Shown: piece after piece, positions 6,411 to 24,886 of the stretch | Layout of the letters: every line of letters starts with the position of its first letter | How positions within the stretch are numbered: position 1 is the stretch's first letter | From: Hymenopellis radicata | Lineage: Eukaryota; Basidiomycota; Agaricomycetes; Agaricales; Physalacriaceae | Reading direction: 5' to 3' | Assembly (NCBI GenBank): GCA_015501595.1 | Contig: JADNRX010000019.1 | Location: 248,001 to 312,000, forward strand | Length of the DNA stretch: 64,000 nt | Made by a program: the position numbers and the translations under genes | The notes under the pieces: model-generated | What the model was told of the DNA's origin: nothing | The model's database searches: none | Seen by the model: the letters and a program-made list of their open reading frames with translations, nothing else

Positions 6411-6452
6411 TGATAGGCAGTGTAGGAATACACCACAGAAAATAACACAACA

Positions 6453-8324
6453 CATCAGTAAGTTAGCATGTGCGTGGCTGGCATGGCGACATGCTGATTA
6501 TGTCGATTATGCAGCCACACATCCGCATAATGATATGAGGTACACCAGGTTTCCCATGCACCCTCGCATAATGAGTTATGTCACTGCCATGCTCAGTCTA
6601 TGCATACCAACCATGCCTGTTATGCATCCCTATGTACCATTCAGATACCTCGGAAATCAAAGAATGATTAAATGATATGCATTGGGTTGTATACAACAGG
6701 CAGGCAAAACGAGCTACAGCATGACAAGGAATACTAGAACTACAAGCACTAGACACCAACAGCACCGGAGAAAGCGACACGCGAGCTATTTACTGCAAAC
6801 CAAGACATCTGTAGAGGCAGTCAGCAACATCACGTTGTAGAAAAAGAAGAGACGTACTCCTGATACGCGCGACTTGACATCGTATCTCGTCATTGTTTCC
6901 TTCGCTCCATCATGTTCGCCATCTAACATAGCTTCAATGGTAATAACCCTTGTACCTGCTGGCTTGTAATCGACCATTGTGTATCGTCGATGCCCTAATA
7001 GTGCCCAGGGCGCAGTCATCGCCTACGCCAGTTCATATCATCATCCGCGCCACCTGATATTGGTCATCCCAATCTGGTATCAGTCGAGCGCATTGCGTAG
7101 TATCGCCCGTGTTGTCTTGAATCATCGTCTACGCCGTCTTGAATCGTTGCTCGTGCTCCTCGTATCGCCCACGCAGACAGTACCGTCGTCCAGGATATCA
7201 CCGCACCGCGGCTGCAGCAACGAAGGAAGAAATCTGTTAAGTCGGTCAGCAAAAGCACAATATTGAGTCAATAAAAAGACGCACCAACAACCTGTATTCC
7301 TATCCACCTGCTAAAGTCGTCATTCAGATGTGCTTGCATCGCTGGGTGCCATCGTCGTCCAAGCTTGATTGCGTCGTCGTCCATGCGTGGTTATATCGTC
7401 GTCCCGCTCACATGCGTGACACCGTCCGCGCTCTCATTGGTAGCATCGCGGGAGTACTTCATTGTTTGGTGGTGCCATGTCCGTGCTCTCGAGAATCGCA
7501 TCGTCGTCGTACTTGGTACTCGTCGCAGTCCAGGGGTCGTCCAGACAGTTCGTAGTCGCTGTGGTCCGTTCTTGGGTTCAGTGGGCACTAACACCCTCGT
7601 CACACGTCGTCTTCGGCGCTCCCTGGTCCCGTCGTCGTCCATGTTCCTCCGTCCAATGTCTTCTGCGCTGGCGTGAGTGTTCGGCACGCCTGGTGTAGTG
7701 TAGTCGTTACCTTGTGCAGGAATTTGGTTATCCCAGCGTTCGTCGGGCTCACGCTCCATATGTTCGTTGGGAAAACAGTCAGTGGGTTACTTGCGCCCGC
7801 GCCGGTGCCGATGTCCACGCTAGCGGAGAAGTCGTCGTCCAGGCGCTTACTATGGCTCCTTGTCGTCCCGAGCTTGGTGCTGCCTTGCGCGCACGCGGCG
7901 TGCTCGTCCAAGATCCGAGGTGGGTGCATAGGCGTAGAGAGGGAGCGAGCCTGGAGGGAAGGTGTCAAGAACGAAGGTGGCAGGAGGCAAGCCAGAACTG
8001 ACATCGGACTTCAAAAAAACGGAAACCGAACATGCACGTGCTTGAATGACGTGTGCGCACGGACCACGATCATCAACACAGTGCGGGTTCGCCGCGTCTT
8101 GAGTGCTGGCTCAAGTCGGCTTGCAGTCGGGTACGGAGGAAGACATGTACGGTGGAAGTCTGGATATTCATACATTCTACCGTTGTTCGACCCTCCCATG
8201 CCATGAGAAACATATGAGCATATTGGACATACACATCCTGGTAAGCATGGCTATGACATGGCTGAAAATTCCGCCATGCCACTTATGCTGATATGCGAGA
8301 TATACGCATGCTATCTTACTGATG
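6453..8324. mobile_element. 1.87-kb TIR DNA transposon nested in the LTR
   Basis: The ends are inverted repeats: catcagtaagttagcatg on the left and the complement of catcagtaagatagcatg on the right. Comparison with the uninterrupted right LTR shows a clean insertion inside an (AC)n run, with a 2-3 bp duplication (ca or cac) whose exact length the run hides. Subterminal zones are rich in catgc, gcatgg and cataat words on both sides. No transposase is recognised, so it is probably non-autonomous. A possible short spliced minus-strand fragment (about 6977 down to 6745) and CGTC/ATCGTC-rich sequence at 7050-7700 fill the middle. The superfamily is unknown. Confidence 0.82.
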
Positions 8325-9544
8325 CACACACACAAAACACAAATCAATAAAAGGTACTATACAAACACCAACAGACTGCTGCAGTCTGTCTGGACAAGTA
8401 AAAGGATCCGACCTTTAACACTCGTAACGAAATACAACTTTAGTCAAACACTCGTTGACTCAAAGAGGATCCAAATGGAAGGGTGAAGTGTACTTCATAA
8501 ACTACAGAAAGGCAAGTTCGAGGGAGCTAGGGTGTGCAGAACTTGTAAGGTTCCGGAAGAACGGAAAGGGCTTCCAACGTCTTAGCCGATAGCTTGGTTC
8601 ACAGGTACACGAGTTACGGGTTTAATCGTCTGCGCGTTGACCGTCTTGATCCAATCCACCTATAACTAACCGAGTGAGGTTCAAGTTCGTTCTTTGAGTA
8701 AAGATCCGCGGGGGCTTGATACACACACTAAGCTTGTCTGAACTTAACGTCTGAGGATTCTGCTCTTATATGAACCAAAAGCAGTTGCAAGCGTGGTGAC
8801 TTCAAGATTTCTTAAGTGGTCACGGAAAGGTTTTCTTGCTTCCGCCGTTTAGACTTCATCTAGGGACAAAGGGGCTTCAACAAGGTCTTTCCGAGTATAC
8901 ACAGTACTGTCTTAAAGAACACCAAGTAACACAACTTGTAGTTCACGGGGGTCTGAGTCTGAGTCTAAACTTAAACAGGTTCTTGGAAGCAATGTTTCCG
9001 AGTCAAAGATACACTTGTATTGGCTTGATAGGCTGTATACGGGAGTGCAGATTAACTACTGACTACGATGTTGAACAGTCCCTTTTATACTACGTACGGC
9101 TAAAGAATGGCGTAAGGCTACTTACTAACTACGGCTTATCTTTGTAGTATAACCGGAAGTATTTGAAATGTTTCCTGCGTAGAACCGAAAGTATAGCTCT
9201 GTTTCCGGTCCGTCGGACATCTGGAAGGGTACATTCCCGGATGTAGTCAAGGTAACACATGGACTGCACCAGGAACAGTATCTGGGCCTTTCGTTATCAA
9301 CCCAACTGTCCTGACTTGTCTGAGTGTAAGTCTTGCTTAGCCTAACAGTGTCTAATCTTGTCCCTAAGCGGAGGTTCAAGGTCTAAGTCTTAGGATTCTG
9401 TAGATACCCTGTACATGGTTCTTTGGAGTGGGTATGGTTCTGGGGTTGGAGATCCAGTAGATATACAGTTTCTCTTATCTCGGATGTAGCTGTGCCTGGT
9501 AGTTTTGGCACTGGGTCAAAGCTGAGCCTATTTGCAAAAGGTGC

Positions 9545-9564
9545 CTGCGGATAGCTATCCGCAG
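9545..9564. promoter_or_regulatory. 20-bp perfect palindrome in the 3' LTR
   Basis: ctgcggatagctatccgcag is perfectly self-complementary and is conserved in both LTRs (the other copy is at 25998-26017). It has the form CGG-N8-CCG, the inverted arrangement that dimeric fungal zinc-cluster proteins bind. A binding role is inference. Confidence 0.5.
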
Positions 9565-10123
9565 GGTGCTATCTGATCGGACTGTCTGTCCGGACGGAAG
9601 TATGGTGTGATTGTGGAGTATTTTGGGTTCTAGGTTTTCAGGGTTCGGGTGGTCCATGTGGGCCTCAAATACCGGATATGCAGGCATCCATAATGATCTA
9701 CCTTACTGTTTCTGTGCTCGTAGAGACGAATGAACGTTGTGTGCGCGGTTTTACTGTGTACCGGATAACTCGCAGTGTTTTCCGTGTCTGTGTGAAGTAC
9801 ACACGCTCCACGGAAGGGAATTTGTCCTTCCACAGGTTCAGAGAGTTATGATAAACCCGGTCGCCTTGAGTATTTGATATTCAGGTACATTCTGGAGATA
9901 CAGAAGCGTCCACGGAAGTTTTACGGAAGCATCCGCGGGTCCTTCCGGGGGCGTGATATCGCCACCTTGGAGTCTCTTCGCGTCCTAAAGAGAGTCTCCG
10001 TGAAGTTAGATAGTCTAACCTCAGTGTACTTCTGGGTTGTAAACGCGTCTAGTTCCGGTCTAGCACTTGTACAGAAATCGCAAAATGTAGCCATTCTGTG
10101 GCATAATTGTAACATGCATATCA

Positions 10124-10138
10124 TCTCCCCTTAACTTA
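10124..10138 (-). promoter_or_regulatory. polypurine tract
   Basis: On the minus strand the sequence directly before the 3' LTR start (TGATATGC) reads taagttaaggggaga. This purine-rich tract is the usual primer for plus-strand DNA synthesis in LTR elements. Confidence 0.75.
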
Positions 10139-10222
10139 GATGATATCGTCCGCGATATCCTTAATTGATCCGCGCAGACTAGTTCCTTTTGAACTCTCTT
10201 GCTGACCCTGATTCACAGGTGG

Positions 10223-10229
10223 TATAAAA
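10223..10229 (+). promoter_or_regulatory. TATA box of accessory gene A
   Basis: TATAAAA lies 45 nt before the ATG at 10274, just inside the 3' LTR. This suggests an independent antisense transcription unit. Confidence 0.5.
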
Positions 10230-10273
10230 CTTAGTCAACCGGCAAGGCCAACTTTCTGTACCATCCGTTCACC

Positions 10274-11813
10274 ATGTCGAAAGCTCCCAAATCTGTGAAC
10301 CTTCTCGTTCTGTTTCCACACGCTGCGTCGGGACCGACACATCCGCCTCCGGATTCCGTGCACAAGCATCTCATGGAGTCTGGTTCTGCTTTGACTCGCT
10401 TCTTGCCTAAGGTTGCTGACCTTCCTGACAACGTTACGACGAGCTTGCACTGTTCACCACGTCAGTGGCTCCTAGGGCTCAGGCCCTTATTGCTACCTTC
10501 GACGACGAGAACACCGCCTTGACGGTTAGGTGTGCTAAACTCGAGGCCACTATCAACAAGATTATCGTATGTCTTTGTTTTCTCTTTGTCCCGGAAGCGT
10601 GTTAACACCTCCGTGTCTAATAGAATCGTAATCCCACGCTTAGCCAGCTTAAGAACGTCCAAGTCATCCCGGTGATGCTTGACTTCGGTCTTGCCTTGCG
10701 CAGTTTCTTGGCCTGCGTGTGTGCTAGTCTGGGCATTAACCCTCAGGATTCTCGCATGCACATTGCCAATTTGTGTCAACCCTTCATTCGCTCTGTCAAC
10801 CGTCCTCTCAACCGCCACTTGCCTGCCTTCGCATCGGACCATCCCTTGTTTAGGGAGGCACCCAAGGAAGCCAAGGCTAAGGTAAGCTTTAGTATTGATT
10901 CTGTGTCTTCGCGTTTAAACAGTCTTATAGGCCCCTGCTAAGAAGGTCCCTAAAACTCCGGAGTTCGTCGCCTCTTCCGGTGACGAAAGCGAGGGCGAGG
11001 AAGGGCCCGACGTGGGTAAGTTCCTTGCACCCGGCGATCCTTTCCGTTGGTCTGACGATGTCGAAGAAATGGACGACGGTGAGGGTGCTAAGCCTTCCGG
11101 GTCCAATGTGAGCTTACGCTTTGTTATAGCGAGGATCAACTGGCTGATTTCAGAGTTGTCTTTGATAACTGTTCAGGACATCGACAGGGTTCTTTCCGGT
11201 GCTCGTATTGCTACTGGTGATAAGGTCAAGGGCAAGGTTTGTTTTCCTTTTTCCTTACTTGGTCTTTTGACTGACTATCCTTAAATTGCTAGGAACCTAA
11301 CAACTCTGGTACCCGTTACCAACCCTTGGCTGAAGTTGAAGGTATGGATACCACCTCTTTGCTTTTCAAGAAGGCTCTGAAGACTATTGGCGTAGCCCAT
11401 GGCACTGAGCTGGCCCCTCTTAAGTGTCGCATTGCACACGCTGAGGACTCTACTAAGGATGCTAAGGTTGCTAAACCGGATGGCATCCTCATCGATCCGC
11501 TGGCGTTGGGATACTTCACTCAAGGTATCTGTCGTTTTCTTAAATGCGACGGAAGGAATTTGACACCTCCGTAGCACCACCTTACATTGAAGGTTATCGC
11601 AACCAAGTCAATCGTTTGGTTCGCATTTTTGAACACTTGTCTAAAGACAGTGCCCAACTCGGCAACTTGTCCCCTAGTGCCGTCAAAGCAGAGTCTCAAT
11701 ATAGGTTTGACCTTACTGCTGCTTTGAACCGTATCTATGGCGAGATTCAGGTTTTCAACCGGGCGGCCTCGTTATACATTAGCACTACTCAGAGCTTGGG
11801 GGTTACGTTGTAA
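10274..11813 (+). CDS. accessory gene A of the retroelement, antisense, six exons
   Basis: Unknown protein of about 418 aa encoded antisense to gag-pol, starting 150 bp inside the 3' LTR. Exons by splice signals: 10274-10566, 10624-10881, 10931-11107, 11177-11236, 11293-11524 and 11575-11813; introns are 49-69 nt. The first exon changes frame near 10436, where a single missing base separates ...LPDNV from DELALF, so this copy may be broken there or carry a sequencing indel. The middle is acidic (SSGDESEGEEGPD) after a Lys/Pro/Ala stretch. The C-terminal about 150 residues look helical. I recognise no domain, Cys-His finger, signal peptide or membrane segment. The downstream exons stay open and in phase, which argues for a real gene. 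Function is unknown; its place suggests it helps or regulates the element. Confidence 0.65.
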
Positions 11814-12113
11814 ATACTCTGACCGTCTTTAACAAAATACCGCTTAGCCTGTTGTGTACTTCTTTTCTAGTAGGCTTAGCGATGAGTTGTCTGTAGTTTC
11901 TAGTATGTTTGTAGTATCTTTAGACACTTGACAAGTGCTACAATCATAGTTGTCTTTTGTTTGAACTTCCTTTGGTGTGAACTTAAATTTGTACACAATC
12001 TCCGGAAGCCTAGCAACACTTCCCGTGCGTCTTGTATTGATAAGAATAGGGGGACACTGCGGATCCACGGATGGATATGGTGCCGCTTCCGTTATTTGCA
12101 ATTCGCTGACGGG

Positions 12114-12119
12114 TATAAG
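12114..12119 (+). promoter_or_regulatory. TATA box of accessory gene B
   Basis: TATAAG stands 33 nt before the ATG at 12147, a normal distance for a short 5' leader. Confidence 0.45.
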
Positions 12120-12146
12120 TAGTCTTGCTTGGTTCGTTGACGACCC

Positions 12147-13012
12147 ATGGAATCTGTACCCATTTTCGCCAACTTCAAGCTGCACTTGCTCCCTGAGTTT
12201 CAGGATGAGGCTACGCGCGATCCCATTCGTTACGACTTAGCGTGCAGGTTGCTAGACCTACGCATGGCTCTACAACTTCACAGGTCTCTGGGAGGCTTTA
12301 TCGTTGTACATCGCGTGCCTTTGCAGGCTCTTAGCTTCGTCGATATTACCACCACCATTCGGGTTGGGAGTGATATCGGTCCTAGGGGAACACAAGACTC
12401 TCCCTTGCTGCGTTTTGCAATCCGCGCATTGGTACGGAAGACTATTTCCGTGTCGTTACCAATGATCTGATATTGTTCTTTCTAGGGTGCGACTACATTT
12501 ATCTGGCGGATTAGTCCTGGCCGTTCGATGTCTGAAGTCGAAAAGCTTTGGGCTCGCACTTTCTTTGTTGCATTGTACGCCTTGGTCGAAGACTTCATGG
12601 TGTCTTACCAGGTCACGGTCCAAGGGGTGACCTTGCTCAACATCCTTTCTCCTGAATTTCGACACTTTGCCACCGACTTCCGTGCGACTTATGAAGAAGC
12701 CATGGTCAACTTGGCGGTACGTCTTTTTGTAATTGTAACGGAAGGTTTCTTCCGTGACTAAAAGTTCGCCTTTCCTAGTTGCACACCATGAGGGTCTCTA
12801 TCTTGGATTCTTCCGTGTTCTACCGCAACCTGGTACCAAGCCTTCATCTTTGTGACGAATTGCTTATTGGCGAGAATGATTTGTCTTATTGGAATAGGGA
12901 ACTAGTCTTGTGGTGGTCGGGATACCAAGGGCAGTGGCGGAGAGGTCAGGATACCATCCGGTTCCACATCGCGCTTGATGAACCCGACTGGGACGAGTTT
13001 GGCTCCCCTTAA
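12147..13012 (+). CDS. accessory gene B of the retroelement, antisense, three exons
   Basis: Unknown protein of 249 aa. The exons 12147-12431, 12486-12716 and 12779-13012 join in phase 0 with introns of 54 and 62 nt (GTACGG...CTAG and GTACGT...CTAG), and every exon length is a multiple of three. The protein is mixed and Leu/Phe/Trp-rich (ends EPDWDEFGSP). It has no Cys cluster, no signal peptide and no clear membrane helix, and I know no family for it. It is tail-to-tail with gene C (135 bp between stops). Both introns contain a CGGAAG...TTCCGT inverted pair. The intact frame across two introns supports it as functional, or only recently lost. Confidence 0.7.
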
Positions 13013-13147
13013 CTTAGATACTTGCTCAGTACTCTTAGTATTAGGTTGCGCTGATCAAGATGTAATCCATTTTAGACTACTGCGACTGGTGTTACTTTTT
13101 ACTAAGGGAAACCCTAAGTACAACACTTCTCCACCTTGTTGTTGAAG

Positions 13148-14530
13148 CTACTCCTCCATGGCGACATCTCCATCCATTTGGGAGTCCTTCTGATCCTTGG
13201 GGTTAGGAGAGGGCGGACGAGCCCCGTCAACGGGTGCAACGGAAGGACCGTCCGGCCTTCCATCTCCTATCGCGAGGTTTATATCCGACCTATACAAATT
13301 ATAGAGTCGTTCCAGGTGCTCTCTAGTGGTTGGTCCACCGCTTATCCACATGGCCCTAGTCGAAGTCTGGATTTCTCCTAGGACTGCATCAAGCCGGGCC
13401 CTGGCCTCGTCTTGTCGACCGCGCGACTCTAGCACTAGCCTGTTTTCTGCTCTGGTTAGTTCGTTGAGTTGCGCCGTTCGTTGGCCCATCTGTTGAGAGA
13501 GTTCTGTGCACAACCCGAAATAGTTCCCTACTAGTTGCTCTAGGCGTACTAGCTGGATGTCCTTGATTTCTGCTTGGGCTTTCAACGACCTATTTTCCTC
13601 CTTAAGATCGTCTACTTGCTTGCGAAGCGCTTCGACCTCGACGGATACGAACGGAAGTGCTTCCGTGCGCTTCGTGTCCGCACTCTTTTCAGCCTTTCCT
13701 CTGGGCTTACGCTGTGCTTGGCTACCAGAGTGTTGCGAAGGACCGGACGGAAGAGGACGTTCTTCCGTGTACTCCGAATCGTCAGAGTCGCTTGGCTCTT
13801 CTTCAGACCCAGTGTCTAATAACGCCTTGACTAGGATGAGTACTTAACTGAGTAGTCAAAGTAAGTCAATGCGCACCTCGAGTTCGGGGTGAACTTGTAT
13901 AATGGCGGTAGCCAAGTACGAATCCAACCAGTGTAGAGGGTCTTCAAACTGGTCTGGTCCTGCTGCATCGTCTTTCAAAATTAGACGGGCCGCGATCGTG
14001 AGCAGGCCCGGACATTTGTCTGCTTTCTGCTGTTCAAGGAGGAACAGGGAAGAGCGAGAAGCCCGTTCCGCGTCCTCTTCTCCAAAGACATATTGACAGC
14101 AGGGCTTGAGTGGAGCCAACTTGTCGAAATAGACGAGTTGGTCAGAGTTGTCCCACTCCGGGTTCCAAGGTTCTTTGTCAAGTTCGTCCATGGCACGTAT
14201 ACCACGGATGACTTGATTCAATACCGAGTCCAGCCAGTACCACTTGGTCGGAAAACGGCTAGGCTCATCCGCGCGGATGGAGGCAGCGGCTAGGTCAGCT
14301 GCATCCGCGAGGAATCGTAAAGACTCGTCGCTTCGCGGAGGCCATTCCTTGATAGACTCGGGACGACGGAAGGCCTCCTCGGCCTTCTCCGTCGTAAACA
14401 CGTAATAGAACTCGGGAGGGATGACTTTGTCCTGCCCCAGATACAACAAGGCACGGTTGATAACGGGGCTAGACGGGGGTTTTAAACTGTTCCTTGGTCC
14501 TTTCTGGGCCTGGGACACCGAGCTGGCCAT
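13148..14530 (-). CDS. accessory gene C of the retroelement, coiled-coil protein, paralogue of gene D
   Basis: Unknown protein of about 443 aa on the same strand as gag-pol. Exon 1 is 14530-13877 (218 codons), the intron 13876-13826 (51 nt, GTGCGC...CAAG), exon 2 13825-13148. The N-terminal 210 residues match gene D in spaced motifs: LLYLGQDKVIPPEF (about residue 28), W-LDSVLNQVI (about 100), YFDKLAPLKPCCQY (about 135) and a second W-LDS (about 200). Exon 2 begins acidic and Ser-rich (EEEPSDSDDSE), then forms a long coiled coil (VEALRKQVDDLKEENRSL onward) and ends acidic. It lacks the Cys6 cluster present in gene D. Function is unknown; it could partner the gene D product through the coiled coil. 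The acceptor choice is inferred from frame. Confidence 0.65.
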
Positions 14531-15439
14531 GGTTTCGGCTGTGATGGCGCTGTTTCCGCGGTCTTTGGGTGGTAGCTGGTGATGGGGAAAAGCAAGTTTA
14601 AAACTTCAACATTGCGTAAAACAGGTCACACGCGTTTGCCGAGATGCCGGGTGACCGATGCCGGACTGTGCCGAGCCTCAATGTACGTACGCGTTTTGGT
14701 GGGCAGGGGCTGCCACGCCTCTTATACGTCTGAGTAGCATTGGGCCTTAGTGTTGCCCATTCCTTCTGTAAGGGACTAGAGGGGGCATGACCTTTGGTTT
14801 AACAAGTCTTAACTAGTTCTTAACTGAACGTTTAGACTTTGTTACAAGGTCAAACCAGTCTTGTACGCGGAAGGTGCTAATGAGGCCTTTCGTGTACTTG
14901 TACTAGTACAGTCACGCCGTTGTTATAGAGTCTTAGCTTTAACTGTTAAGAGTCTCTATAACAACGTCTTAAGTATGGATCCACGGATAGATTTATCCGT
15001 GTCATAAGCATAGCTTGACGTCCACTAAGCCTTTTGTCATGACCCCTACAAGTCATAGACAGCGTGGATTCTTAGTGAACAGGCATGGTAGCTATACTGC
15101 CATGTCTGTATGGGTGTAGACTCTAGCTTCTACAATTTGGGTATAGTTCAACGGTAGCTTATATCTGCTTCCGTGTCCATGCGGAGCCTAAGACTACCGA
15201 GGCTTGTTGGTTGACAGACAGTTGCTTGAGCTGTCTGTTATCTTAGGTCTGGCTTACAAGACTTGACTTCTCTTAGAGCCTTTGTCAAGTTCTTATCTTC
15301 TTACAGTCACTCAACTAGAGGCGCCAATAAACAGATACGGATTTTTCTATGTACAACTTTTTGAGCTGTGAAGTGTACAAGATATAAGCGACATTTTGTC
15401 GCGGCCTATTCTACACGTAGCGTCCAATACTACAGGGCT
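14531..15439. other. 900 bp between accessory genes C and D, with a hairpin
   Basis: No gene is seen. A hairpin at 14919-14965 pairs gttgttatagag with ctctataacaac around a loop that itself contains tctta/taaga. CACGGATAGATTTATCCGTG near 14986 is another inverted pair. TTTAAA near 14592 may be the TATA-like element of gene C. A 3' untranslated region of gene D and a 5' leader of gene C are the likely content. Confidence 0.5.
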
Positions 15440-16810
15440 CTACTGCGTACCCGAACCACTCGCGACTTGATTCTCCAACGTCTCTAGCCTTTCCTGCAGA
15501 TCAGCCACCAGGTACTCCAACTCTTCAATGCGTCCTTGGGTACCCGAACGCTGCGCAATGCCTTGGATTGGTTCGTCAGAGTCAGGCAAGTCCGTGTCTT
15601 GGTCGGACGGGAGATGTTCTTCATCATCCGTGCCCAGCGGTTCCTTCGTGCATTTGATCTTGCGTCGAAGACACTCTTCGCAACAATGCTTGCGCGCCCC
15701 CGACTTGGCATACCTGAAGATGCACTTCGTGTTCTTCTTGCTACACGGAATGCAAATTCCGTTGATCCAGCGCTGAACGGCAGTGCTGTTGTTGCCAGTG
15801 CTGATCTTGTTGGCTCGCGGCTCGTACTTGCGAGTCTTCTTGGGTTTGGGTGCGGCGTCGGATTCGTCGTCAGACGAGTCAGACGAGCTTGGCCGTGCCC
15901 TTTTGGTGCGGGGAATGACGACGGCAACGGTAACTCCCTTGGTGGCGGCCTTGGGAGCAGCCTTGGCTTTACCCTTGCCTTTCGAGGGAGGCGACGGAGT
16001 AGACTCGTCTTCCGTGTCGTCTTGAGCTGGCGGCGAATACTCCTTTTCATCAGACTCTTCGTCGTCGCTCTGTTGAAGGTTCTTTTAAGTCAAATTTGAC
16101 CTGAAAGCAAGACGTGTACTTACGTCTAGAGGTGCCGCTTCTACATGCAACACCTGAAGTGTTTCCAGGAACACTTGGTCCAACGCTTCAAACTTTGCTT
16201 CAACAGTATGCGCCGCTTTAAGGGCGGTGCGGGCTGCTGAGCGTCGGTCTCTGAAGTGTTTGAGGAACCTTCGGCAGTGGTCATCTGTCCACTCGCCAGG
16301 TCGCTGTTCCAATGGTAAGAACGCCAAGTGATTCGCAGATCGACGGATCTCCTCTGCTTGGCCTTCCGTGAGCAAGTATTGACAACAGGTGTACTTGTCT
16401 GCCAGGTTGTTGAAGTACTTGCCCGTCTGAGTTTCGAAGTAATCTTCGGGCTCGGGCGAGGCTTCCGGCTCAGGCGTGGGCTCGTCGTCTTCTGTGGGGG
16501 ATGGAGGGCGCTCGTCGGACTCTGCTTCGTCGTTCATGAAGCCCTGCACGGTCTCAAAGAAGACCGCATCCACCCAATGCAGCAGGCTGAAGTGGTCGTC
16601 TTCGTCTTCGGGGCGGCGCTGCAGTCTCTGCACGACTGCGCGAACAACGCCCATGTCGCGCCCGCCGCTCTGACCATTCAACGCTTCGAAGATCAGGTTG
16701 GGGCTCTTAGCCAGCATGAAGGCAACTGGCTGATCGAGCGGGAAGTTGTATTTGGCGGGAATGTCGGCGTTGCCGATGTAGAGGAAGGCGGGCTCATCGT
16801 TGGCGGACAT
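15440..16810 (-). CDS. accessory gene D of the retroelement, zinc-cluster (Cys6) protein
   Basis: Protein of 438 aa on the gag-pol strand. Exon 1 is 16810-16124, the intron 16123-16070 (54 nt, GTAAGT...ACAG) and exon 2 16069-15440. The N-terminal half is related to gene C (FLYIGNADIPAKYNF, HWVDAVFFETVQGF, YFNNLADKYTCCQY). Exon 2 is acidic, then basic (TKRARP, KPKKTRKYEPR; probable nuclear signal). It then has six cysteines in a fungal binuclear-cluster spacing, CX2CX6CX13CX2CX6C, at residues 334, 337, 344, 358, 361 and 368; the last knuckle (CEECLRRKIKC) carries the basic loop typical of GAL4-type DNA-binding domains. A short coiled coil (IEELEYLVADLQERLETLE) follows near the C-terminus, as in dimeric Zn2Cys6 regulators. 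Inferred role: sequence-specific regulator carried by the retroelement. The knuckle order differs from canonical GAL4, so a protein- or RNA-binding role is possible. Confidence 0.75.
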
Positions 16811-16865
16811 AGCGAGTATTTGGGGGGTGGACGTAAGAGAACAAACGGTTCCATCCGTTGTGCTC

Positions 16866-16873
16866 TTTATAAA
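16866..16873 (-). promoter_or_regulatory. TATA box of accessory gene D
   Basis: TTTATAAA lies about 60 nt upstream of the gene D ATG on the minus strand, suggesting a promoter separate from the LTR. Confidence 0.4.
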
Positions 16874-17396
16874 TCATTTCTGGTCCACTTCTCGGCTATT
16901 TCCGGGCTGCGGGCGCTTCTTCCCTAGCAACGGAACTTAAAATTCTTCCTAGCGTAACAACGGAGGATCTGCTCCAGCTTCCTTGTTACTTGAGCCCAGA
17001 ACTCTGGTTCTGAGTGAATTCTGGTGCACGGATGGGTATATTTCTTGCATTCCGTGCCCAACTTGAATCCTGATTTTGAAAATTGACTGGTTTTGAGAGG
17101 AATACTACTGTACCCTCTCCTTTCTTTTTCTTTACATGGCGTCCGCGCCATCTATGTTACTTCTCTAGCTTTTGTTACAATGAAAGAAGGCTAAGCTTGT
17201 ACGCCTGTAAATATTTAACTAGAAACCTTCTAAGTCTTGGGTTCAGTGCCTTCAAGTATTTAGGCAGCCACTGTCAAGTGTGAAGCAGTCAACATGTAAG
17301 ACTATCAGCTACTTGAGATTCTTAAGTTCTTAAGTAGCCTTCTCCATGCAACTTAGACATGTTCTTGTAAGTTAGACGCTTTCTGGTTGTCTGTAT
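16874..17396. other. non-coding gap between pol and accessory gene D
   Basis: About 520 bp after the pol stop codon (17397-17399) hold no recognisable gene. They are AT-richer than the flanking frames and probably carry the pol 3' region and the gene D promoter. Confidence 0.4.
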
Positions 17397-19553
17397 TTAA
17401 GGTCTGCGACTTGCGTGACTTAGAATCCATAAGGCACTTTTGGCAATCTTGTCATAGACTTTACTGACACTGCCTCTTATCGCATTAAGTCTGTTATGGA
17501 ATTTCGTTCCCAAGTCAATTGGGTCCCTTCGTGAATAGAAAGGTAAGACACGGAAGCCCGCGATCTTTCCGTCTAAGAGGACACCGTTCAAGTCACATAG
17601 TACATAGTTCCCAGCAGTAGTCCTTGTAACTACCACATAAGGTCCCATAAACCGTTCCTTGAACTTTGAGTTGAGTTCATCTTCTATGCGAGTATTCCTG
17701 ACTAGTACCATTTCCCCAGTCTTGAATACCCAGTTTGGCATTGTGTTCTTGAACTGTTCCATGAACCGTTCTGCAGCCTTCTTCTTAGCTGCTGTTACTC
17801 TTTTCTTCATGGCTGCTACATCTTGGGCGTGTTTAGCTATAAGTCTAGCCCTGTAAGCCACTAAATCTGAGTGTGATATTATCTTGTCTGGCGAATCAAC
17901 AAGCCAAGTCACCTCCATGTAGTCCAACGGAAGGATCGGTTCGCTTCCCGTCACCGCATAGAAGGGTGAACAACCAAGTCCACGTTTGACTGTAATCCTC
18001 TCTGCCCATAGGACTTCATATAAGTAGGCAGGCCACATGCTTGGGTCACCCTTACACACTTTAAAGAGTGATTGTCTTATATCCCAGTGACCACGTTCTA
18101 CTTTTCCATTGGCTTGTTTGTTGTAGGCTGTAATGAGAATGCCTTTAATGCCATACTTTTCTTCTACGTATCGCATTGCTTTCTTAATAGATGGACCGTT
18201 ATCTGTAACGATTTCTCTAATACAACCCCATCTTGATAGAACTTCTTCAAATAGCCAGTCTCCTAAGGTTTCAGCTGTTTCTTCTTTAAGTGCTCGGGCT
18301 TCAGGCCAACCTGATAAACCACATCGAGCTACTGTTACTGCGTTGTAACCGGAATACTTATCGTCTTCCGCAGCTAATCCTTTCTTAGAAGTCTTGCCAT
18401 CTTTGTTTGGTGAGCCCGTCGACTTAGGCATCCGGAAGGTATCTACATAGGCTTTCTCAAAGATCCCTGGAGTTGAGGTGATCCTTGGTTCCATATGTAT
18501 ATTCTTCTTTTGCCTCTTCTGACAGAGAACACAGGTCTTGATATACCAATTGATATCGATTTCTGAAGCGGGCCACCAGAATCTTGACCGAATCAAATGT
18601 CTAACTGAATACTGTCCCTTATGACCGTTCTTATCATGTATGACCTTGCAGACAGCCATTCGTTCTGGTTTTTGTAACACTCGCTTGTGTTCTCCTTTCT
18701 TGTCTGTTTTGTAAAGCCTTTCATTTCTAACGAAGAAATCTTTCTCTGCCCACTCTTGCATCTTGTCGAGTAGGAACGGATCCAAGTCCTCGTCTTCCGT
18801 GTGCGGTTTGTTTTCTAAGTAGGGTTGTACGTATGGCAACATGACTTCCCAAGTCTTCTCTCTTTCCGACCGTCCTTGGTCTGGGAAGTTAGGAATGTCT
18901 ACCCACTTCTCAATGTCTTCTACCGCTACTGAGGTTGCTTGTAAGATTTCGTCGTTCGTTGACCACGGATGGGTTTCCGAGCTTTCCGTTTTACTGGGAA
19001 GCACGCCTTGTAGGAATCCCGTTCGTGTATCAATGTTATTTCTGAATTTCTCAAAGTCTAGAGGCCGATCTGCTTGTGGCAGCTTCGGGTCCTCTTCGTA
19101 CTCCAGTTCTAAAGTATCATCAGGTTCATCGTAGACTATTATTGGATCCTTTTCTGAAGGAGGTCTTCTACTCAAACCGTCGGGTCCATGAACCTTTCCG
19201 GGTACATGTACCAACGTGAAATGATACATTAAAATGTCTTCTGCCCATCTTTGTAGATTGGCATTTGTTAGGGAGTCTATGTTAGATAGCATACCCTTGA
19301 TGTACTTTGCGTCTACTTCTATACGAAGCTTTCTACACCCTAAGAGATAGTACCTACAGTGAGCCAACGCTCGATGTAAGCCAAATAGTTCTCTTTTTGC
19401 TTGAGAGTATCTTGCTTGTGTATCGTTTAGAGTAATAGACATGAACTTGGCGAAGTTCGTTTTCTTTTCATCTTCAGGATCCTTCTGTGATAGATAGAAC
19501 CCAATAGCCTGGTAGGATGTATCAACTGATAATGTTATACTGTACACTTTCAT
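17397..19553 (-). CDS. pol: pol, RNase H and integrase part
   Basis: 718-codon frame encoding the C-terminal half of the Ty3/gypsy polyprotein. RNase H occupies roughly residues 5-135 (SVDTSYQAIGF with the first Asp, RELFGLHRALAHCRYY, HVPGKVHGPDGLSRR). The integrase zinc finger follows near 305-345 (HDKNGHKGQYSV..., TCVLCQ; an HHCC pattern), then the catalytic core with the three acidic residues in YVDTFRMP, VTDNGPSIKKA and KQANGKVERGHWD. The C-terminus has a GPY/F-type module (ERFMGPYVVVTRTTAGNYVL). I see no chromodomain. The first codons are MITE-derived: the natural frame entered from the reverse transcriptase before a MITE landed at 19545-19735. Confidence 0.93.
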   Translation of the reverse strand: MKVYSITLSVDTSYQAIGFYLSQKDPEDEKKTNFAKFMSITLNDTQARYSQAKRELFGLHRALAHCRYYLLGCRKLRIEVDAKYIKGMLSNIDSLTNANLQRWAEDILMYHFTLVHVPGKVHGPDGLSRRPPSEKDPIIVYDEPDDTLELEYEEDPKLPQADRPLDFEKFRNNIDTRTGFLQGVLPSKTESSETHPWSTNDEILQATSVAVEDIEKWVDIPNFPDQGRSEREKTWEVMLPYVQPYLENKPHTEDEDLDPFLLDKMQEWAEKDFFVRNERLYKTDKKGEHKRVLQKPERMAVCKVIHDKNGHKGQYSVRHLIRSRFWWPASEIDINWYIKTCVLCQKRQKKNIHMEPRITSTPGIFEKAYVDTFRMPKSTGSPNKDGKTSKKGLAAEDDKYSGYNAVTVARCGLSGWPEARALKEETAETLGDWLFEEVLSRWGCIREIVTDNGPSIKKAMRYVEEKYGIKGILITAYNKQANGKVERGHWDIRQSLFKVCKGDPSMWPAYLYEVLWAERITVKRGLGCSPFYAVTGSEPILPLDYMEVTWLVDSPDKIISHSDLVAYRARLIAKHAQDVAAMKKRVTAAKKKAAERFMEQFKNTMPNWVFKTGEMVLVRNTRIEDELNSKFKERFMGPYVVVTRTTAGNYVLCDLNGVLLDGKIAGFRVLPFYSRRDPIDLGTKFHNRLNAIRGSVSKVYDKIAKSALWILSHASRRP

Positions 19554-19735
19554 TCAATTCGTCGGCCATGTGACCTGTGACCGGTCCGACGAATTTGGTT
19601 TCGATGAATTACCATATATGGTATGGCGGCGGAGCTGCGGGAGGTGGGGGGGGCGACGATTGGGAGTCGCGTGAGCTGTGACTTTTCGTCGATTTCGATC
19701 GCCTGTGACCGTGACCGACGAATTGAATTAAAGTC
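19545..19735. mobile_element. 191-bp MITE splitting pol
   Basis: Both ends carry the inverted repeat CTTT(C/A)ATTCAATTCGTCGG, followed inside by TGTGACC motifs, and TA flanks each side (19543-19544 and 19736-19737), as for Tc1/mariner-derived MITEs. It contains accatatatggt and has no coding capacity. It separates the reverse transcriptase from the RNase H frame; with one TA copy removed the two frames still differ, so an additional small indel is present. A relative lies at 37176-37419. Confidence 0.85.
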
Positions 19736-21574
19736 TACAGTAGGTGAGTCCCAATCGTAACGGAGTGGCTTTAACATTGGACAGTTTGTGATAGCATCTT
19801 TCAAGGCCTGCATTGAAGCCTTTTCTTTTGGTCCCCACTGGAAGGGTATCGCGCCTTTATTTAGTCTATTCATGGCATATGCTTTAACTGCATAGTCTTT
19901 TATGAAGGCACGGAAGATTCCCGTGGTTCCGAGGAAGGACTTGACATGAGTTAAGTTTTCACAGTCCGGCCAGTCCTGAATAACCTTAACGCGGTCAGCG
20001 GCAGGCTTCCGTCCCGCGTACGAACATACATGTCCCACTACTACTATCTCGTCTGCGCAGATAATAGCTTTGAGACCAGAGAATGTGCCACCGGCGTATT
20101 TCATACGTTGAATGATTCTATTCATATTGTTAAGGTGTTCCCAAATGAATCGTCTGACTTTAGGATTCTCCGGAAGGACTTCCGGGTTTCCGTCCTTGTC
20201 CTCGTAACGAGTACTGGGCCCTTTGACTGGTACATCATCAATGTAAGGTCTGGTATACGCAGGTATCTCATCTCTGAGAATGTACGTTACATCTTCATGA
20301 AAGATGGGTACTGAATTTGTCCATCCCATGGGTAAGGTTCTAAGTCTTAAGGCTCCATAGGGTGTGGAGAACGTAGTCATATCTCGTGAAGAGATTGCTA
20401 ACAGTCGTTCATCATACCCTACATACAAGTCTAAAGTTCCTCCACAGGCTAAGCCAGCGAAAGCTTCTGCCAACTCTTCCGTTGCCGGAGGTAAACCTGA
20501 GTGCGCAATAGTTACTGCGTTCAAAGGTTCTAAACTATGTACTAGCCTTAACTTCTTACTATCTTTCTTAAGTACACAAAACCATCTTGATCTGTATGAA
20601 GAGTTGGATGGTTCATATACTCCCGTATCTATCTTGTTCTTAATAATCTTACAGACCTCCTCGTATATGCCCGGAGGGATTGGGATGTTCCGTAACACCC
20701 ATGGTGTATGCGGAATGATAGGCATGTCAACCGGTGGGAAGAAGTCTTCACGAAATTTCCCTTTTTCCGATTTATCCCATGCGAAACCCTCATTCTGAAG
20801 GCACATCAAGTGGTCTACAAGCTTTCTTTCCTCGGGCCATAAGAAATCTCCCTTATGGTCATTCTGTACTTGCTCCCGTCTTTCCGCTGTGTACCGGCCT
20901 GTAGGTACAAAGTCAGGAGGATGCATAGACAGTTTAGGTAGCGTGGCTAAAGGATCCCCTTGTATGTCACGGATGATCCGGAACTCATCCGGTAGGGTCC
21001 CGAGATGCGGTTTTGTCTTTAAGGCTACTGGTTTGTATTTCTTAGCCACGAAGGCACCGTAGACATCTGGTTTACGCATTTCGAATAATCCTTTAGGCTT
21101 GTGCATTTTCTTAAGTCCTTGAAGGAACACTTCTTGTTGTTTATTAATATACCCTTCAGCCATAGATACTGTAAACTGATTAAACACGCTTTGTAGTTCA
21201 TTAGGTACTCCATAGAACAACTGTGGAGTATCTAAAACTAGGCCATCCTCTGCTTCTTCTTGTGTTAACGGTTTTTGAATGTTAAACACCTTACGGAAGC
21301 CTTCGACCTTCCGTCGCGCATGTAATTCGATAGGGTGATCTCTTGGTGCGGGAACCCATATAGGTTCTTTGGGGTCCCGGTACATAAATTCTTTTCTAAG
21401 TGGTTTGACTGCTCGTTGAAGTCCTTCATTCGACTTCTTCAAGTATAGACTGGTCAAGTCACTTTGTGTAAAACTGGTCCTTTGTTCTCCAGGTACATAG
21501 GTCTCTTGTATCTTGTACCCAACTTTGCTATTACCCGTAATGTAGAGAGCCACCTCTCCTTGATCCGGGATCAA
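19736..21574 (-). CDS. pol: pol, reverse transcriptase part
   Basis: Reverse transcriptase of the Ty3/gypsy element, interrupted at its C-terminal end by the MITE. Visible motifs in order: WVLRNIPIPPGIYEEV, the fingers segment SRWFCVLKKDSKKLRLVHS, the first catalytic Asp in GGTLDLYVGYDERL, FSTPYGALRLRTLPMGWTNS, and the catalytic YIDD in RPYIDDVPVKGP. The thumb/connection follows (KSFLGTTGIFRAFIKDYAVKA). The frame meets the protease frame around 21571-21600 in a different phase, so expression may need a frameshift, or there has been an indel. The variant YIDDVPVKGP is one I associate with agaricomycete gypsy elements. Confidence 0.92.
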
Positions 21575-22869
21575 TTCCTCGAGCGGCTCTGAAAACCCTC
21601 TTGTTGAACAGGTCGGAGATACCTGGGTACTTCCCCTCTGGTGTAGGTCGGCATCGTAATCTTCCTTCCGTTACTGGGATCGGTGATTGTAGCTGCTACA
21701 TGGCCTTCTGAGTTCGAAGTCATAAGGTTGGATACCACTTCGAAGGGTCTTCCTAGTAGTACCTCATAAGCAGGTGCTTTGAGTATATGTACTTGTAGAT
21801 AGTATGTAATCCCTTCGAAGGTGAACGGAAGGTTCTGTGCTAATCCGACCGTGGTCGTTCGGGTCTGATCGGCGCTTTCCATCGTTATCTGGATGTTAGG
21901 GTTGTAAGGGATCCCTAATTCTAAAGCTGCCCTAAGTGACATAGAGACGATTTGTGACCCGGAATCGAGTAAACACTCCTTCCGGCCAGCTCCTCCAATG
22001 ATTGGCCATACTGTTCTTAATTCTTCGCTCTCTTTAGCTACATTTGCAGCATTATAGTTTACGTTGAAGTAAGGACCCGCATACCCATTGTTAAAATGGT
22101 AGAGCTGTACCACTGGATCATGTACTACTATGGCACCCTTAGGTAGGCCCTTGTTTTGGTCTAGATTGATCGTATAGTCAGATGGCGAAGTTGGTGCAAA
22201 CTCTAGCTGCACATTTACTTTGACATTCCGGCCTTTTAATAACTCTAACAAGTCCTTCTGCCAGGCCTCATTAGTAGCCAACATCTCAAAAGGTAAGAAG
22301 TGTTTCCAAAGTGACCGCCATTCTGGGTTTTCATTCAACATGGATCTAATCTTCGAGATTCTTTGGTAAGTTCTCTGTTTCTGTTGTTCGACTGGATCAG
22401 TTGAAGTAGCTACTGGCTCTGGAGCCTTTAAGGCTTCTTCAATGATCTTGTTTAGTTCTTGGTCTTCTTGGTCTATACCTTTGCTTAGAGTAGTAGCTTC
22501 TTTCGGTGTCACGGAAGGCTGTGCCGGTTCCGGTTCCTCTACGAATGTTACTTTCTTCCTCATAGGTATGACTACTTCCACTTGTCTTTGGGAAGGTCTA
22601 GGTGCGTTTCCGGCTTGGAAATTGGGACCAGGTTTAGGTCTGGTCTCCACATTATCTGATTTTTCTAGATTAGTTTGTGAACGAGTGTTTGCATATTGGC
22701 TCTCAAGAGGCTCTACTGTTACACTAGTAGGCCCAGACTTTGGCGGAAGCTCCGATTTTATTTCCGGAAGAGGATTATTGGCACTCCAACTTTGTCTTTG
22801 TGACTCTATTAGGTGCTCTAATAATTTTCTTTCCATCGTATTAAGTGTCGCGTCTTCCTTCTTTTCCAA
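21571..22869 (-). CDS. retroelement protease region
   Basis: 432-codon frame. The first about 150 residues are polar and Pro/Glu-rich (linker after gag). A retropepsin-like aspartic protease follows near residues 300-390: the active-site loop reads CLLDSGSQIVSMSL (D-S-G in place of D-T-G), and the partner hydrophobic segment is YEVLLGRPFEVVSN. It cleaves the Gag-Pol polyprotein. It lies between gag and the reverse transcriptase, each in its own frame, and the stop overlaps the next frame by a few bases. Confidence 0.88.
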   Translation of the reverse strand: MEKKEDATLNTMERKLLEHLIESQRQSWSANNPLPEIKSELPPKSGPTSVTVEPLESQYANTRSQTNLEKSDNVETRPKPGPNFQAGNAPRPSQRQVEVVIPMRKKVTFVEEPEPAQPSVTPKEATTLSKGIDQEDQELNKIIEEALKAPEPVATSTDPVEQQKQRTYQRISKIRSMLNENPEWRSLWKHFLPFEMLATNEAWQKDLLELLKGRNVKVNVQLEFAPTSPSDYTINLDQNKGLPKGAIVVHDPVVQLYHFNNGYAGPYFNVNYNAANVAKESEELRTVWPIIGGAGRKECLLDSGSQIVSMSLRAALELGIPYNPNIQITMESADQTRTTTVGLAQNLPFTFEGITYYLQVHILKAPAYEVLLGRPFEVVSNLMTSNSEGHVAATITDPSNGRKITMPTYTRGEVPRYLRPVQQEGFQSRSRN

Positions 22870-22993
22870 AGTCTTGTCTATCCTCGAGCTTAATCGAAAT
22901 TTGCCTGGGTCTCTGAGCCTCTACTTTGATCAATCATGGTCTGAGGGCTGAACATTTCTTCTTCGTCTTCAATAGCGAAGTTCTGAGTCTTGA

Positions 22994-24388
22994 TCATGGC
23001 TGAAGCTTCTGGGGCAACTTGCCATTCATTTTCTCCATCAACTTCCAAACTTGCCAAGCGGGCCAAATGCCTGCTTTAGCTTTACTTCCAACAGACACCC
23101 CATTTCGTAAGAAATAGAATTTAACACCGTTCGGCTTGTAAATCCATCCTTCCGTTTCCATCTTCTGACAGTGAGGACACTCTCTGGCAAAGTGACCTTC
23201 TTCACCGCAAAAGTAACAGAGGTTTCCGTTGTTATTATGATGTTGATGTTGATGCCCCGGAGGGCTTCTACTGCTTCCGGGTTGGTTTCTGATCAACATT
23301 CCGTTAGGAGCCACATTACTGTGTTGCATAGTAGGTGGTCCTCCCGGATAGTTGGGGGCTCCTTGAGCTAAATGTTGTACTACGTGGTAAGGATAGCTTA
23401 TAGGTTCACTGGCATAGTCATACTGTTGGACATGTTGGGTCCTGACTCCCTGATTCCCTCTAGCTATCTCTTTGAACGCCGCCAACAGTTGTTCGTGGTG
23501 ACGAACTTGGAGCTGTTCTTGAGCAAGACGTGCTTCTCGTTGTTCCTTAGCTTCAATCTTGAATCTATCCATAAGTAAGGCCAAGTTCTCATTTTGTTGT
23601 GATAAGTCCTCAGTCTTGACTCTGGAGGTTGAAACTGGTACCAGACCCCGCTCATAAGTGCGTCCAGAAAGCACATCTGGTGCTTCCGTGGTCTGGCCGA
23701 AGACGTTCATATCTCCGAAATGAGTGCTAATGGCACCAACTACCTCTTCTAAAGTCCAGCGTAGTCCAACTGCCTTGGCTTTATCGGAAGACTCCGGATG
23801 TGCCCGTTTCAGTTCCACTTGTACACTAGCCCATGCTGGGCCTAGGATACAGGAAATGATCTGGTCTATAGCATATTTTTCCGTTATGTCCTTATTGTTG
23901 ATCAAGTAAAGCATAACATGCATGATGACACGTTTGAACTCAACCCAACTTGCTTTGTTGTAGATCTGACTAGACCTATACAGGTTGAGCTTCTCTTCTA
24001 GTTCTCTGGTAGTGTAACGTCTATCATCTGCACCAATACCATAACTTTCCATAATAGCTTTCTTGAACTCCGGATAAGCACCAGCCGCATACTCTGGCAT
24101 GGCCATCCACTGAGTTCGGATGTCTTCATCTACATAACTGACGGCAACTTCAATTTGCAGTTCCGTGTCTGTGACCTTATTAGCTGGAAAGATCCAGTCT
24201 AGGGCGTTGAAATATTTCTTAATACCACCTGGTGTGGCATTAAAGTCAGGTGCATGTCTGGTACCCGGAATGGGTAGATGCTTTCCGTCTAGAGCGTCTG
24301 AGACAGCTTTCGACGGGTATTTAGTGGGGTCTAATCCCATTTTGGGTAACTGTTGTCGTAGATCTCTAAAAAGAGAATGCGGTTGCAA
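22994..24388 (-). CDS. gag: gag
   Basis: 464-codon frame for the capsid/nucleocapsid protein. The central part is the Ty3/gypsy Gag capsid fold region (for example FNALDWIFPANKVTD, followed by W-rich helices and ELEEKLNLYRSSQIY). The C-terminal zinc knuckle is CYFCGEEGHFARECPHC (CX2CX4HX4C, the CCHC nucleocapsid signature). The reading frame stays open upstream of 24388 (...SLVPYPDPLSGDENEDF) to about 24490. There it meets a second frame (24451-24860) with a Ser/Pro-rich Gag N-terminus; the shift falls at a C5A4 run and fits a one-base indel. No ATG is seen in the N-terminal part after the PBS, so the true start is unclear. Confidence 0.88.
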   Translation of the reverse strand: MQPHSLFRDLRQQLPKMGLDPTKYPSKAVSDALDGKHLPIPGTRHAPDFNATPGGIKKYFNALDWIFPANKVTDTELQIEVAVSYVDEDIRTQWMAMPEYAAGAYPEFKKAIMESYGIGADDRRYTTRELEEKLNLYRSSQIYNKASWVEFKRVIMHVMLYLINNKDITEKYAIDQIISCILGPAWASVQVELKRAHPESSDKAKAVGLRWTLEEVVGAISTHFGDMNVFGQTTEAPDVLSGRTYERGLVPVSTSRVKTEDLSQQNENLALLMDRFKIEAKEQREARLAQEQLQVRHHEQLLAAFKEIARGNQGVRTQHVQQYDYASEPISYPYHVVQHLAQGAPNYPGGPPTMQHSNVAPNGMLIRNQPGSSRSPPGHQHQHHNNNGNLCYFCGEEGHFARECPHCQKMETEGWIYKPNGVKFYFLRNGVSVGSKAKAGIWPAWQVWKLMEKMNGKLPQKLQP

Positions 24389-24450
24389 GGAGTAGTCTGG
24401 AAGACGGAAGTCCTCGTTTTCGTCTCCGGATAGAGGGTCCGGATAGGGAA

Positions 24451-24860
24451 CTAGCGACTTAGGGGCCGCTTTTGGTGCACTTGGTGCTTTTGGGGGTTAG
24501 TCCTGATAGGAGGAGTAACGGGTTCCGGAAGGACTTGTGTCTTCTTCCGTAACGGGTGTTCTTTTTGGTTAGACTGAGCTGCCTTAGCGATAGCTTTTTG
24601 TCTAGCTTCTGGACCACCGTCTACAAGAGAACCTGGGACTAGAGCACTTGGTCTGAGGGTTCTATCCGAACTAGTAGAAGGGTTTCTAGAACTTGTACTA
24701 GCACGGGGAGCAGGAGGTGGGGATAAGTCTTTCTGACTTGCAGTATATCGCAAGGACTGCGAGGTCGGAGTCTGCTTGGCAGGTATTTTGGTTTTTGAGA
24801 GCTGGGTAAGCTCTATAGCGCTTCCGGGTTCTGGTCCCTGGAAGGTTCTGAACAATTTAA
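24451..24860 (-). pseudogene. gag: frameshifted N-terminal part of gag
   Basis: An open frame between the PBS and the main gag frame encodes a basic, Ser/Thr/Pro-rich sequence (for example PPPAPRASTSSRNPSTSS, then KKTQVLPEPVTPPIRTNP). Joined with the main gag frame by a one-base change near 24490, the sense continues (NP-K-AP-S-AP-K-AA). The stop at 24451-24453 is therefore probably secondary. Confidence 0.6.
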
Positions 24861-24881
24861 GCCCCCTCGCGGTGGGCTCCA
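24861..24881 (-). promoter_or_regulatory. primer binding site
   Basis: Five nucleotides inside the 5' LTR the minus strand reads TGGAGCCCACCGCGAGGG. It starts with TGG, complementary to a tRNA 3' CCA end, with a GC-rich continuation of 18-21 nt. I cannot name the tRNA from memory. Confidence 0.75.
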
Positions 24882-24886
24882 AAATA

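Follow-up and report, generated by a model that had tools for sequence, protein, structure and literature searches.

Why does a fungal retrotransposon carry four spliced genes between its integrase and its 3′ long terminal repeat (LTR), and what might they do for it? The question is raised by a Ty3/gypsy element on the minus strand of a 64,000-nucleotide stretch of the Hymenopellis radicata genome (contig C507, 248001-312000), here called the window, to which all coordinates below refer unless another contig is named. The assembly comprises 75.49 Mb in 1,405 contigs, and our copy searches covered this same genome. We conclude, with a probability of roughly 0.68 as judged from sequence, that the block belongs, as an old and integral accessory module, to a fungal Ty3/gypsy lineage and that it encodes a dimeric DNA-binding regulator of the element itself. 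This regulator would act over the whole element, much like the VANC anti-silencing proteins of VANDAL DNA transposons.

The original prediction, made from the letters of the window, described a gypsy element with Gag, protease, reverse transcriptase (RT), integrase and polypurine tract, about 18 kb long without a nested insertion, and Pfam, phmmer, the LTR pairs, the tract and the length all agree with it (Table 1). It also placed four spliced genes between the integrase stop and the 3′ LTR, with D and C in sense and B and A antisense to gag-pol, and this arrangement stands. The four introns that it counted are too few, as D has one, C one that is uncertain, B two and A at least five. The TATA boxes that it proposed are seen in front of A (10223) and B (12114), in family 1 and in the diverged family 2 described below, and are unconfirmed for C and D. 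Its comparison with antisense proteins expressed from a 3′ LTR describes an unlikely arrangement here, because the boxes of A and B lie outside the LTR. In the window copy exon 1 of A carries a frameshift; by visual inspection the same exon stays in frame in four other copies.

The block recurs with the element. The genome contains 89 matches to the RNase H-integrase (RH-IN) reading frame, 77 to the LTR DNA, 22 to the D exon, 24 to C, 9 to B exon 1 (8 contigs) and 8 to the A exon (8 contigs). All 8 A matches and all 9 B matches lie inside element remnants, and neither gene was found outside elements in this genome at E up to 0.001. The order integrase-D-C-B-A-LTR is complete in the window and in C273, both of family 1, and all four genes keep their order and strands in these two and in C894 of family 2. 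C114 reads integrase-D-C until the contig ends within B, and in C609 the block is reduced to the end of C, to B and to part of A; the contigs are short and several copies partial. The 3′ flanks of C507, C273, C982, C80 and C894 are unrelated, apart from 49 nt (84%, opposite strand) common to C273 and C894, and these copies are therefore independent insertions. Thirteen contigs (C507, C103, C672, C273, C56, C810, C438, C114, C1026, C424, C544, C471 and C894) have an integrase of family 1 or 2 that includes a piece of at least 80% identity and a match past residue 600; the fragments C1087, C797 and C1084 were excluded since their integrase match is too short. On 12 of the 13 the integrase is followed by a match to D, although this match is weak on C56 (31.8%, E 3e-5), C672 ends inside D, and on C424 D lies ~12.7 kb away. 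The sole miss is the decayed C1026, in which the D search found no match in the 3 kb read. We considered whether C471, C715, C876, C1225 and C810 lack A and B and rejected this, as another family's LTR abuts mid-gene C in each and is read as a nested insertion; C609 shows the opposite side of one such insertion. Three of these contigs, C715, C876 and C1225, are almost the same in sequence and possibly represent a single locus. As far as contigs and truncations show, the predicted membership of the block in the element holds, since other copies and family 2 keep the gene order and the counts for A, B and D show the block neither missing elsewhere nor made up of solitary genes.

Family 2 (C894 and C544, mutually 97.7% identical from integrase to C) agrees with family 1 in gene order and strands and differs from it in its LTRs (~71%); in C544, ~19 kb lie between C and B. 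Compared by stretch with the window proteins, identity is 45% for C, 32-52% for B and 37-74% for A; for D it is 25-31% in the N-terminal part and 44-45% in the zinc part (38% over a longer stretch). Synonymous sites are saturated between the two families (pS 0.72-0.80), and nonsynonymous differences (pN) amount to 0.23 for A, 0.35-0.36 for B, 0.41 for C, 0.45-0.47 for D and 0.06-0.13 for the integrase. These comparisons, which come from matched stretches only and are biased toward conserved parts, show that the four accessory genes are under purifying selection. The families share five intron positions in A and two in B, the intron sequences themselves having diverged; the donor of A intron 2 is unclear in family 2. 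Within family 1, 7 of 8 comparisons find greater similarity in exons than in introns; only B of C982 departs from this. A third family (C1295 and C566, integrase 63-65%) is arranged differently. In C1295 about six D/C-like sense genes follow the integrase, four of them with the zinc pattern, as grouped by motif and open reading frame (ORF). A and B were not found in family 3, and the 3′ LTR starts directly after the polypurine tract. The C1295 copy, with LTRs at 41493 and 73487, measures ~33 kb including insertions. More broadly, the giant family-3 elements C1295:41493-74800 and C566:18726-54603 span 33-36 kb between outer LTRs, insertions included, and carry D/C-like arrays. In C604, a more distant gypsy element, no D/C-like motifs were seen in the 5.9 kb after the integrase, and IMG/VR scans with RH-IN and D exon queries returned no relatives.

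The protein encoded by D contains the module C-x2-C-x6-C-x13-C-x2-C-x6-C, which has the six-cysteine spacing of Zn2Cys6 domains. Among 10 sequences three of the cysteines are invariant and the other three nearly so. C is a paralogue of D, with identity at 55 of 190 aligned positions (29%, E 4e-8), and no cysteine module was seen in C. One W and one D of the WLD motif are invariant across nine aligned sequences of the D/C kind; AlphaFold gave no confident fold for this domain. Foldseek comparison of the D model with the PDB at E up to 10 returns four weak matches (E 3-6), two to GAL4, one to PUT3 and one to 1cld, a DNA-binding protein that we take to be LAC9, and PDB sequence searches with D gave no match. 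From these features we infer that D is a dimeric Zn2Cys6-like DNA-binding protein. GAL4 and PUT3 are Zn2Cys6 factors whose binding rule is an inverted CGG-N-CCG pair. D resembles them in its six-cysteine module and coiled coil, and differs in its gap of 13, which exceeds the usual cysteine gap, in a Pfam score below the cut-off, in the location of the module in the C-terminal half of the protein, and in being borne by a retrotransposon.

The element is rich in CGGAA/TTCCG sites (Table 1), compared with 86 CGGAA sites in 36 kb of host DNA, or 2.4/kb. The top-ranked 6-mer of the 5′ LTR is CGGAAG (12 against 0.7 expected), which also occurs 23 times in gag-pol (3.0 expected), 22 times in the accessory block (4.2) and 29 times in the 36 kb of host DNA (19). 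The two top LTR hexamers are found 13, 9, 15 and 10 times in GAG, PR, RT and RHIN, respectively, where synonymous-codon shuffles average 3.6, 1.7, 4.0 and 2.6, and 0 of 500 shuffles reach the observed count in any of the four. Sites in gag-pol lie on both strands and in all frames. Both B introns also contain sites, so that LTR, gag-pol, introns and spacers are all site-bearing. Adjacent sites within 25 bp of each other are inverted in 20 of 26 pairs, where the null mean is 6.3 and none of 5,000 shuffles gives as many; in host DNA 0 of 4 such pairs are inverted. The CGG-to-CCG spacings, pooled with those of the derivative C159 described below, are 8-10 (6 pairs) and 14-19 (19 pairs). Beyond the core the two arms agree about as independent draws would (offset -1, 10/20 against 0.41 expected; offset +5, 9/20 against 0.47). 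RNA hairpins formed by paired sites are unlikely, as the arm flanks are complementary only at about chance level. Hexamer density is 4.6-7.8/kb in eight stretches of seven other family-1 copies and at most 2.0/kb in other stretches, and the LTR of another family in C471 contains no hexamer match.

Each family appears to be enriched in a motif of its own, strongly in family 1 and more weakly in families 2 and 3. We scanned all 1,024 5-mers for inverted pairs, with plain Poisson p values that are uncorrected; by themselves, the family-2 values would not withstand correction. The best pair in family 1 is CGGAA..TTCCG (p 2e-12) and in C894 of family 2 CGGGT..ACCCG (p 7e-5). In C544, also family 2, TCGGG..CCCGA (p 2e-3) stands behind TTTTT..AAAAA, as does CTCGG..CCGAG (p 5e-6) in family 3. 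The best six pairs of another gypsy stretch, and those of two host stretches, include no CGG..CCG pair; in one of the host stretches TGCCG..CGGCA, which has the opposite arrangement, ranks third (p 5e-3). The density of [T/A]CCCGA is 3.4-4.9/kb in family 2, 2.2 in family 3 and 0.86 in host DNA. A separate case is C159:3968-12640, a non-autonomous derivative in which gag is truncated and parts of the accessory-block spacers are kept, as are the two polypurine-tract regions, of which the internal one has mismatches. A-D gave no match in it, nor did the integrase in 3.75 kb. It holds 6.7 CGGAA sites/kb, and 5 of 5 pairs are inverted (p 0.0008).

Two features, the CGGAA sites and a second polypurine tract, go beyond the original prediction. 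The internal tract lies between C and B and is identical to the one adjoining the 3′ LTR. Both tracts are present in C273, C982 and C683 of family 1, in C894 and C544 of family 2 and, with one mismatch in one of them, in C80. Genome-wide the tract occurs at 22 places with at most 1 mismatch, compared to 0 for a reversed control. Its 17 nt are identical across families 1 and 2 despite saturated synonymous sites, and by eye the B reading frame of family 2 stops ahead of the internal tract, so coding does not explain the conservation. The internal tract may be a second primer similar to a central tract.

We propose that D, perhaps together with its paralogue C, binds CGG-N-CCG sites on the element's own DNA, dimerizing through its coiled coil and recognizing the CGG halves. 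In this way it would coat, de-silence or activate every copy of the same family, as VANC does, and non-autonomous derivatives would be served in trans. The antisense genes A and B would be transcribed from their own promoters, and we can only guess that they help at the chromatin or post-transcriptional level. A second plus strand would probably be primed from the internal polypurine tract on the very long template. Because sites cover the whole body and not the LTR alone, an anti-silencing type of action over the whole element is likelier than plain promoter activation. That protein and site co-diverge by family (CGGAA, CGGG, CTCGG), with the D gene up to ~sixfold in the giant relative, as a VANC-like self-recognition of LTR retrotransposons, is a view toward which we lean slightly. 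The regulatory reading of the block, already part of the original prediction, has gained sequence support from the enriched and paired sites, and it is still inference.

Several observations weigh against the proposed self-binding regulator. The repeats had been spotted visually in the LTR and the accessory block ahead of any count, which leaves gag-pol and C159 as independent tests. In C159 the 5-mer scan ranks GGAAG..CTTCC first and CGGAA..TTCCG fifth. Five of six accessory exons tested singly have no excess over synonymous shuffles, C exon 2 alone exceeding them, and the family-2 integrase has no excess of its own motif. The LTR of family 2 ranks other hexamers first, and for its inverted pairs p is only 0.15 at distances of up to 25 bp and 0.014 at up to 40 bp. 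The whole genome contains CGGAAG-N1-13-CTTCCG 159 times, compared to 136 times for the reversed control pattern; among the matches listed (50 distinct places with the lowest contig numbers, a non-random set) 37 are inside these elements. Between the window and the old copy C80, sites are retained barely more often than other CpG hexamers (0.54 vs 0.44; in the reverse direction 0.70 vs 0.58). As for the protein, Zn_clus (PF00172) stays under its gathering score, with 6 of 10 members matching at E up to 1 and a best value of 0.0026, and the two AlphaFold models are of poor quality, with a mean pLDDT of 57-58. Two further observations weigh against the membership of the block in the element. Neither a full D nor an integrase is found in three copies, though C-B-A-LTR is retained: C982 begins with the final 60 nt of D, and C80 and C683 have no D or integrase match. 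Solitary D-like zinc-module exons occur at C1063, at C613 and, in weak form, at C576; the window gag-pol had no match in the stretches read there (~10 kb each for C1063 and C613, 3.1 kb for C576). Finally, the link between D and the sites is a correlation, and a host factor could read the CGGAA sites. The modules at C613:1747-2181 and C576:69275 lie, by sequence reading, beside the same homeodomain-like ORF, and are possibly domesticated or remnant.

D could instead be a plain promoter transactivator of its own LTR, similar to Tat or Tax, with the remaining sites as side effects. The LTR is indeed the densest region, with 10.1 CGGAA/kb and inverted pairs at 25163, 25424, 25639, 26264 and 26377, but a promoter factor does not need coding sites far above chance on both strands and in all frames of gag-pol, or sites in the B introns, and we consider this explanation unlikely. 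Coverage of the whole element would also suit a protein that coats cDNA, and a real module might serve another purpose, such as control of copy number, choice of target site or nuclear entry of cDNA, D then being a cDNA-binding protein; the lack of Pfam matches for A and B leaves room for such roles. We doubt this for lack of positive evidence and because antisense units that bear TATA boxes of their own point to expression from an integrated copy.

Rather more doubtful is a role of the sites for a host transcription factor or in RNA (hairpins, packaging, export) and not for an element protein. Many fungal factors read CGG triplets, and inverted CGGAA..TTCCG could make short stems. Against this stand the chance-level complementarity of the paired-arm flanks, the occurrence of the motif on both strands, and the preference of three families in one host for three differing CGG-containing pairs, the support for two of these pairs being weak. 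It seems very improbable to us that the block came from host genes captured by chance or from a second insertion nested in this copy. The lone D-like modules and the LTR abutting mid-gene C on the five contigs named above could be taken in favour of such an origin, yet independent loci and different families hold the block, it bears signs of purifying selection, and A or B matches outside elements were not found. The self-encoded regulator, within an integral module, remains the reading that we prefer.

Among described systems, the plant Retand/Tat gypsy lineage is the closest in layout that we found, closer than retroviruses. In these elements the region between pol and 3′ LTR measures 2.9-6.6 kb and holds antisense ORFs, mostly TRP28 with predicted DNA binding, for which a regulatory role has been proposed (PMC11963269). 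Antisense ORFs between pol and the 3′ LTR are shared with the element in the window. The latter differs in being fungal, in having four spliced genes (two of them sense), a gene of Zn2Cys6-like type, TATA boxes of its own and element-wide family-specific sites; A and B gave no Pfam match at E up to 1, including TRP28 (PF04195), and the word "intron" does not occur in the main text of PMC11963269. VANC proteins bind a short motif that accumulates in their own family and differs between families (PMC5735166). The likeness here is a short, family-specific motif accumulated within its own family, with binding predicted from sequence. VANDALs are DNA transposons with motifs mainly in non-coding tandem repeats and in one orientation, whereas the fungal element is an LTR element with sites in coding sequence too and close pairs that are mostly inverted. 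The resemblance to VANC would be functional only, and homology is not claimed. Bdelloid rotifer LTR elements carry an extra gene, ORF3, downstream of gag-pol (PMC5408684), and Burro and Ogre are examples of giant gypsy elements (PMC6431247). In the portions seen of these two papers the likeness lies in extra genes downstream of gag-pol or in large size, the extra genes are env-like, enzymes or uncharacterized ORFs, and neither a self-binding regulator nor an antisense spliced pair is described. A literature search of titles and abstract openings, with few subscription papers, found no fungal gypsy element with such genes, and the main text of a paper on Laccaria transposable elements (PMC3411680) does not contain "ORF", "open reading frame" or "antisense".

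The original prediction likened the layout to complex retroviruses. Complex retroviruses and lentiviruses have accessory genes after pol, antisense genes and a central polypurine tract, and post-pol accessory genes, antisense genes and a second tract are indeed found here. Homology was not found, the second tract of the fungal element lies after the integrase, and no env was recognized among the ORFs scanned with Pfam; in layout the Retand/Tat lineage is nearer.

The assignment to Ty3/gypsy rests on the order protease-RT-RNase H-integrase, a Ty3-like RT, paired LTRs and the polypurine tract (Table 1); a Pfam scan of the RT ORF gave no match. The LTR pieces are 97.9% identical over 1,094 nt and 96.6% over 558 nt. 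About 147 nt are absent at one point of the 5′ LTR in the window and are carried by other LTR copies, for example C982, C810, C672 and C114, so the gap is probably a deletion in the window 5′ LTR. Directly after the LTR, TGGAGCCCACC is a candidate tRNA primer binding site. The element ends are flanked by ACGC and ACGG, an imperfect target-site duplication that is possibly a decayed one. The insertion nested in the 3′ LTR resembles a DNA transposon, with terminal inverted repeats of 10 nt.

Table 1 Features of the Ty3/gypsy element in the window.
Feature	Position	Strand	Remarks
Ty3/gypsy element	6411-26576	-	~18.3 kb once nested insertion subtracted
5′ LTR	24887-26576	-	TGATA...TATCA; 1,690 nt; 17 CGGAA sites
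gag ORF	22994-24496	-	zf-CCHC zinc knuckle, PF00098, E 1.3e-7
Protease ORF	21571-22920	-	PF13650, E 2e-4, slightly below Pfam cut-off
Reverse transcriptase ORF	19550-21670	-	phmmer: PDB 4ol8, E 2.5e-14; Ty3 7q5b, E 7.6e-13
RNase H and integrase ORF	17397-19553	-	PF17917, PF17921
Gene D	15440-16810	-	438 aa; one intron 16070-16123; WLD domain, Zn2Cys6-like module, C-terminal coiled coil
Gene C	13148-14530	-	WLD motifs, coiled-coil-like exon 2; one intron 13826-13876, uncertain (AAG acceptor)
Internal polypurine tract	13003-13019	-	between C and B; identical to 3′ tract
Gene B	12147-13012	+	antisense; 249 aa; introns 12432-12485, 12717-12778
TATA-like box of gene B	12114-12119	+	family 2 also has one before B (by eye)
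Gene A	10274-11813	+	antisense; at least 5 introns
TATA box of gene A	10223-10229	+	family 2 also has one before A (by eye)
3′ polypurine tract	10125-10141	-	ATCTAAGTTAAGGGGAG; adjoins 3′ LTR
3′ LTR	6411-10123	-	two parts, 8325-10123 and tail 6411-6454; nested insertion between
Nested insertion in 3′ LTR	6453-8324		1,872 bp; ends CATCAGTAAG/CTTACTGATG; TG duplicated (by eye)
CGGAA/TTCCG sites	10142-26577	.	102 sites in 16.4 kb, 6.2/kb; 20 inverted pairs CGG-N8-19-CCG

The element adjoins a SWIM zinc-finger ORF at 26577-27755 on the plus strand (PF04434, E 6.5e-8), presumably MULE-like, into which it may have inserted. Elsewhere in the window, 648-2899 is a near-perfect 2.25-kb inverted repeat whose arms, 560, 239 and 329 nt long, are 96-100% complementary and enclose a central 4 nt; it is either a palindrome or an assembly artefact, and 30545-31150 is a tandem repeat of three copies of a ~200-nt unit, 98-99% identical.

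Extra genes downstream of pol are already known in plant gypsy elements, without a shown function. In the H. radicata element their function can now be tested in vitro, since probable target sites are visible. If the proposed regulator exists, transposon self-recognition would extend from plant DNA transposons to fungal retrotransposons. The evolution of sites inside coding sequence would then be shown, and the three related families would provide natural specificity pairs.

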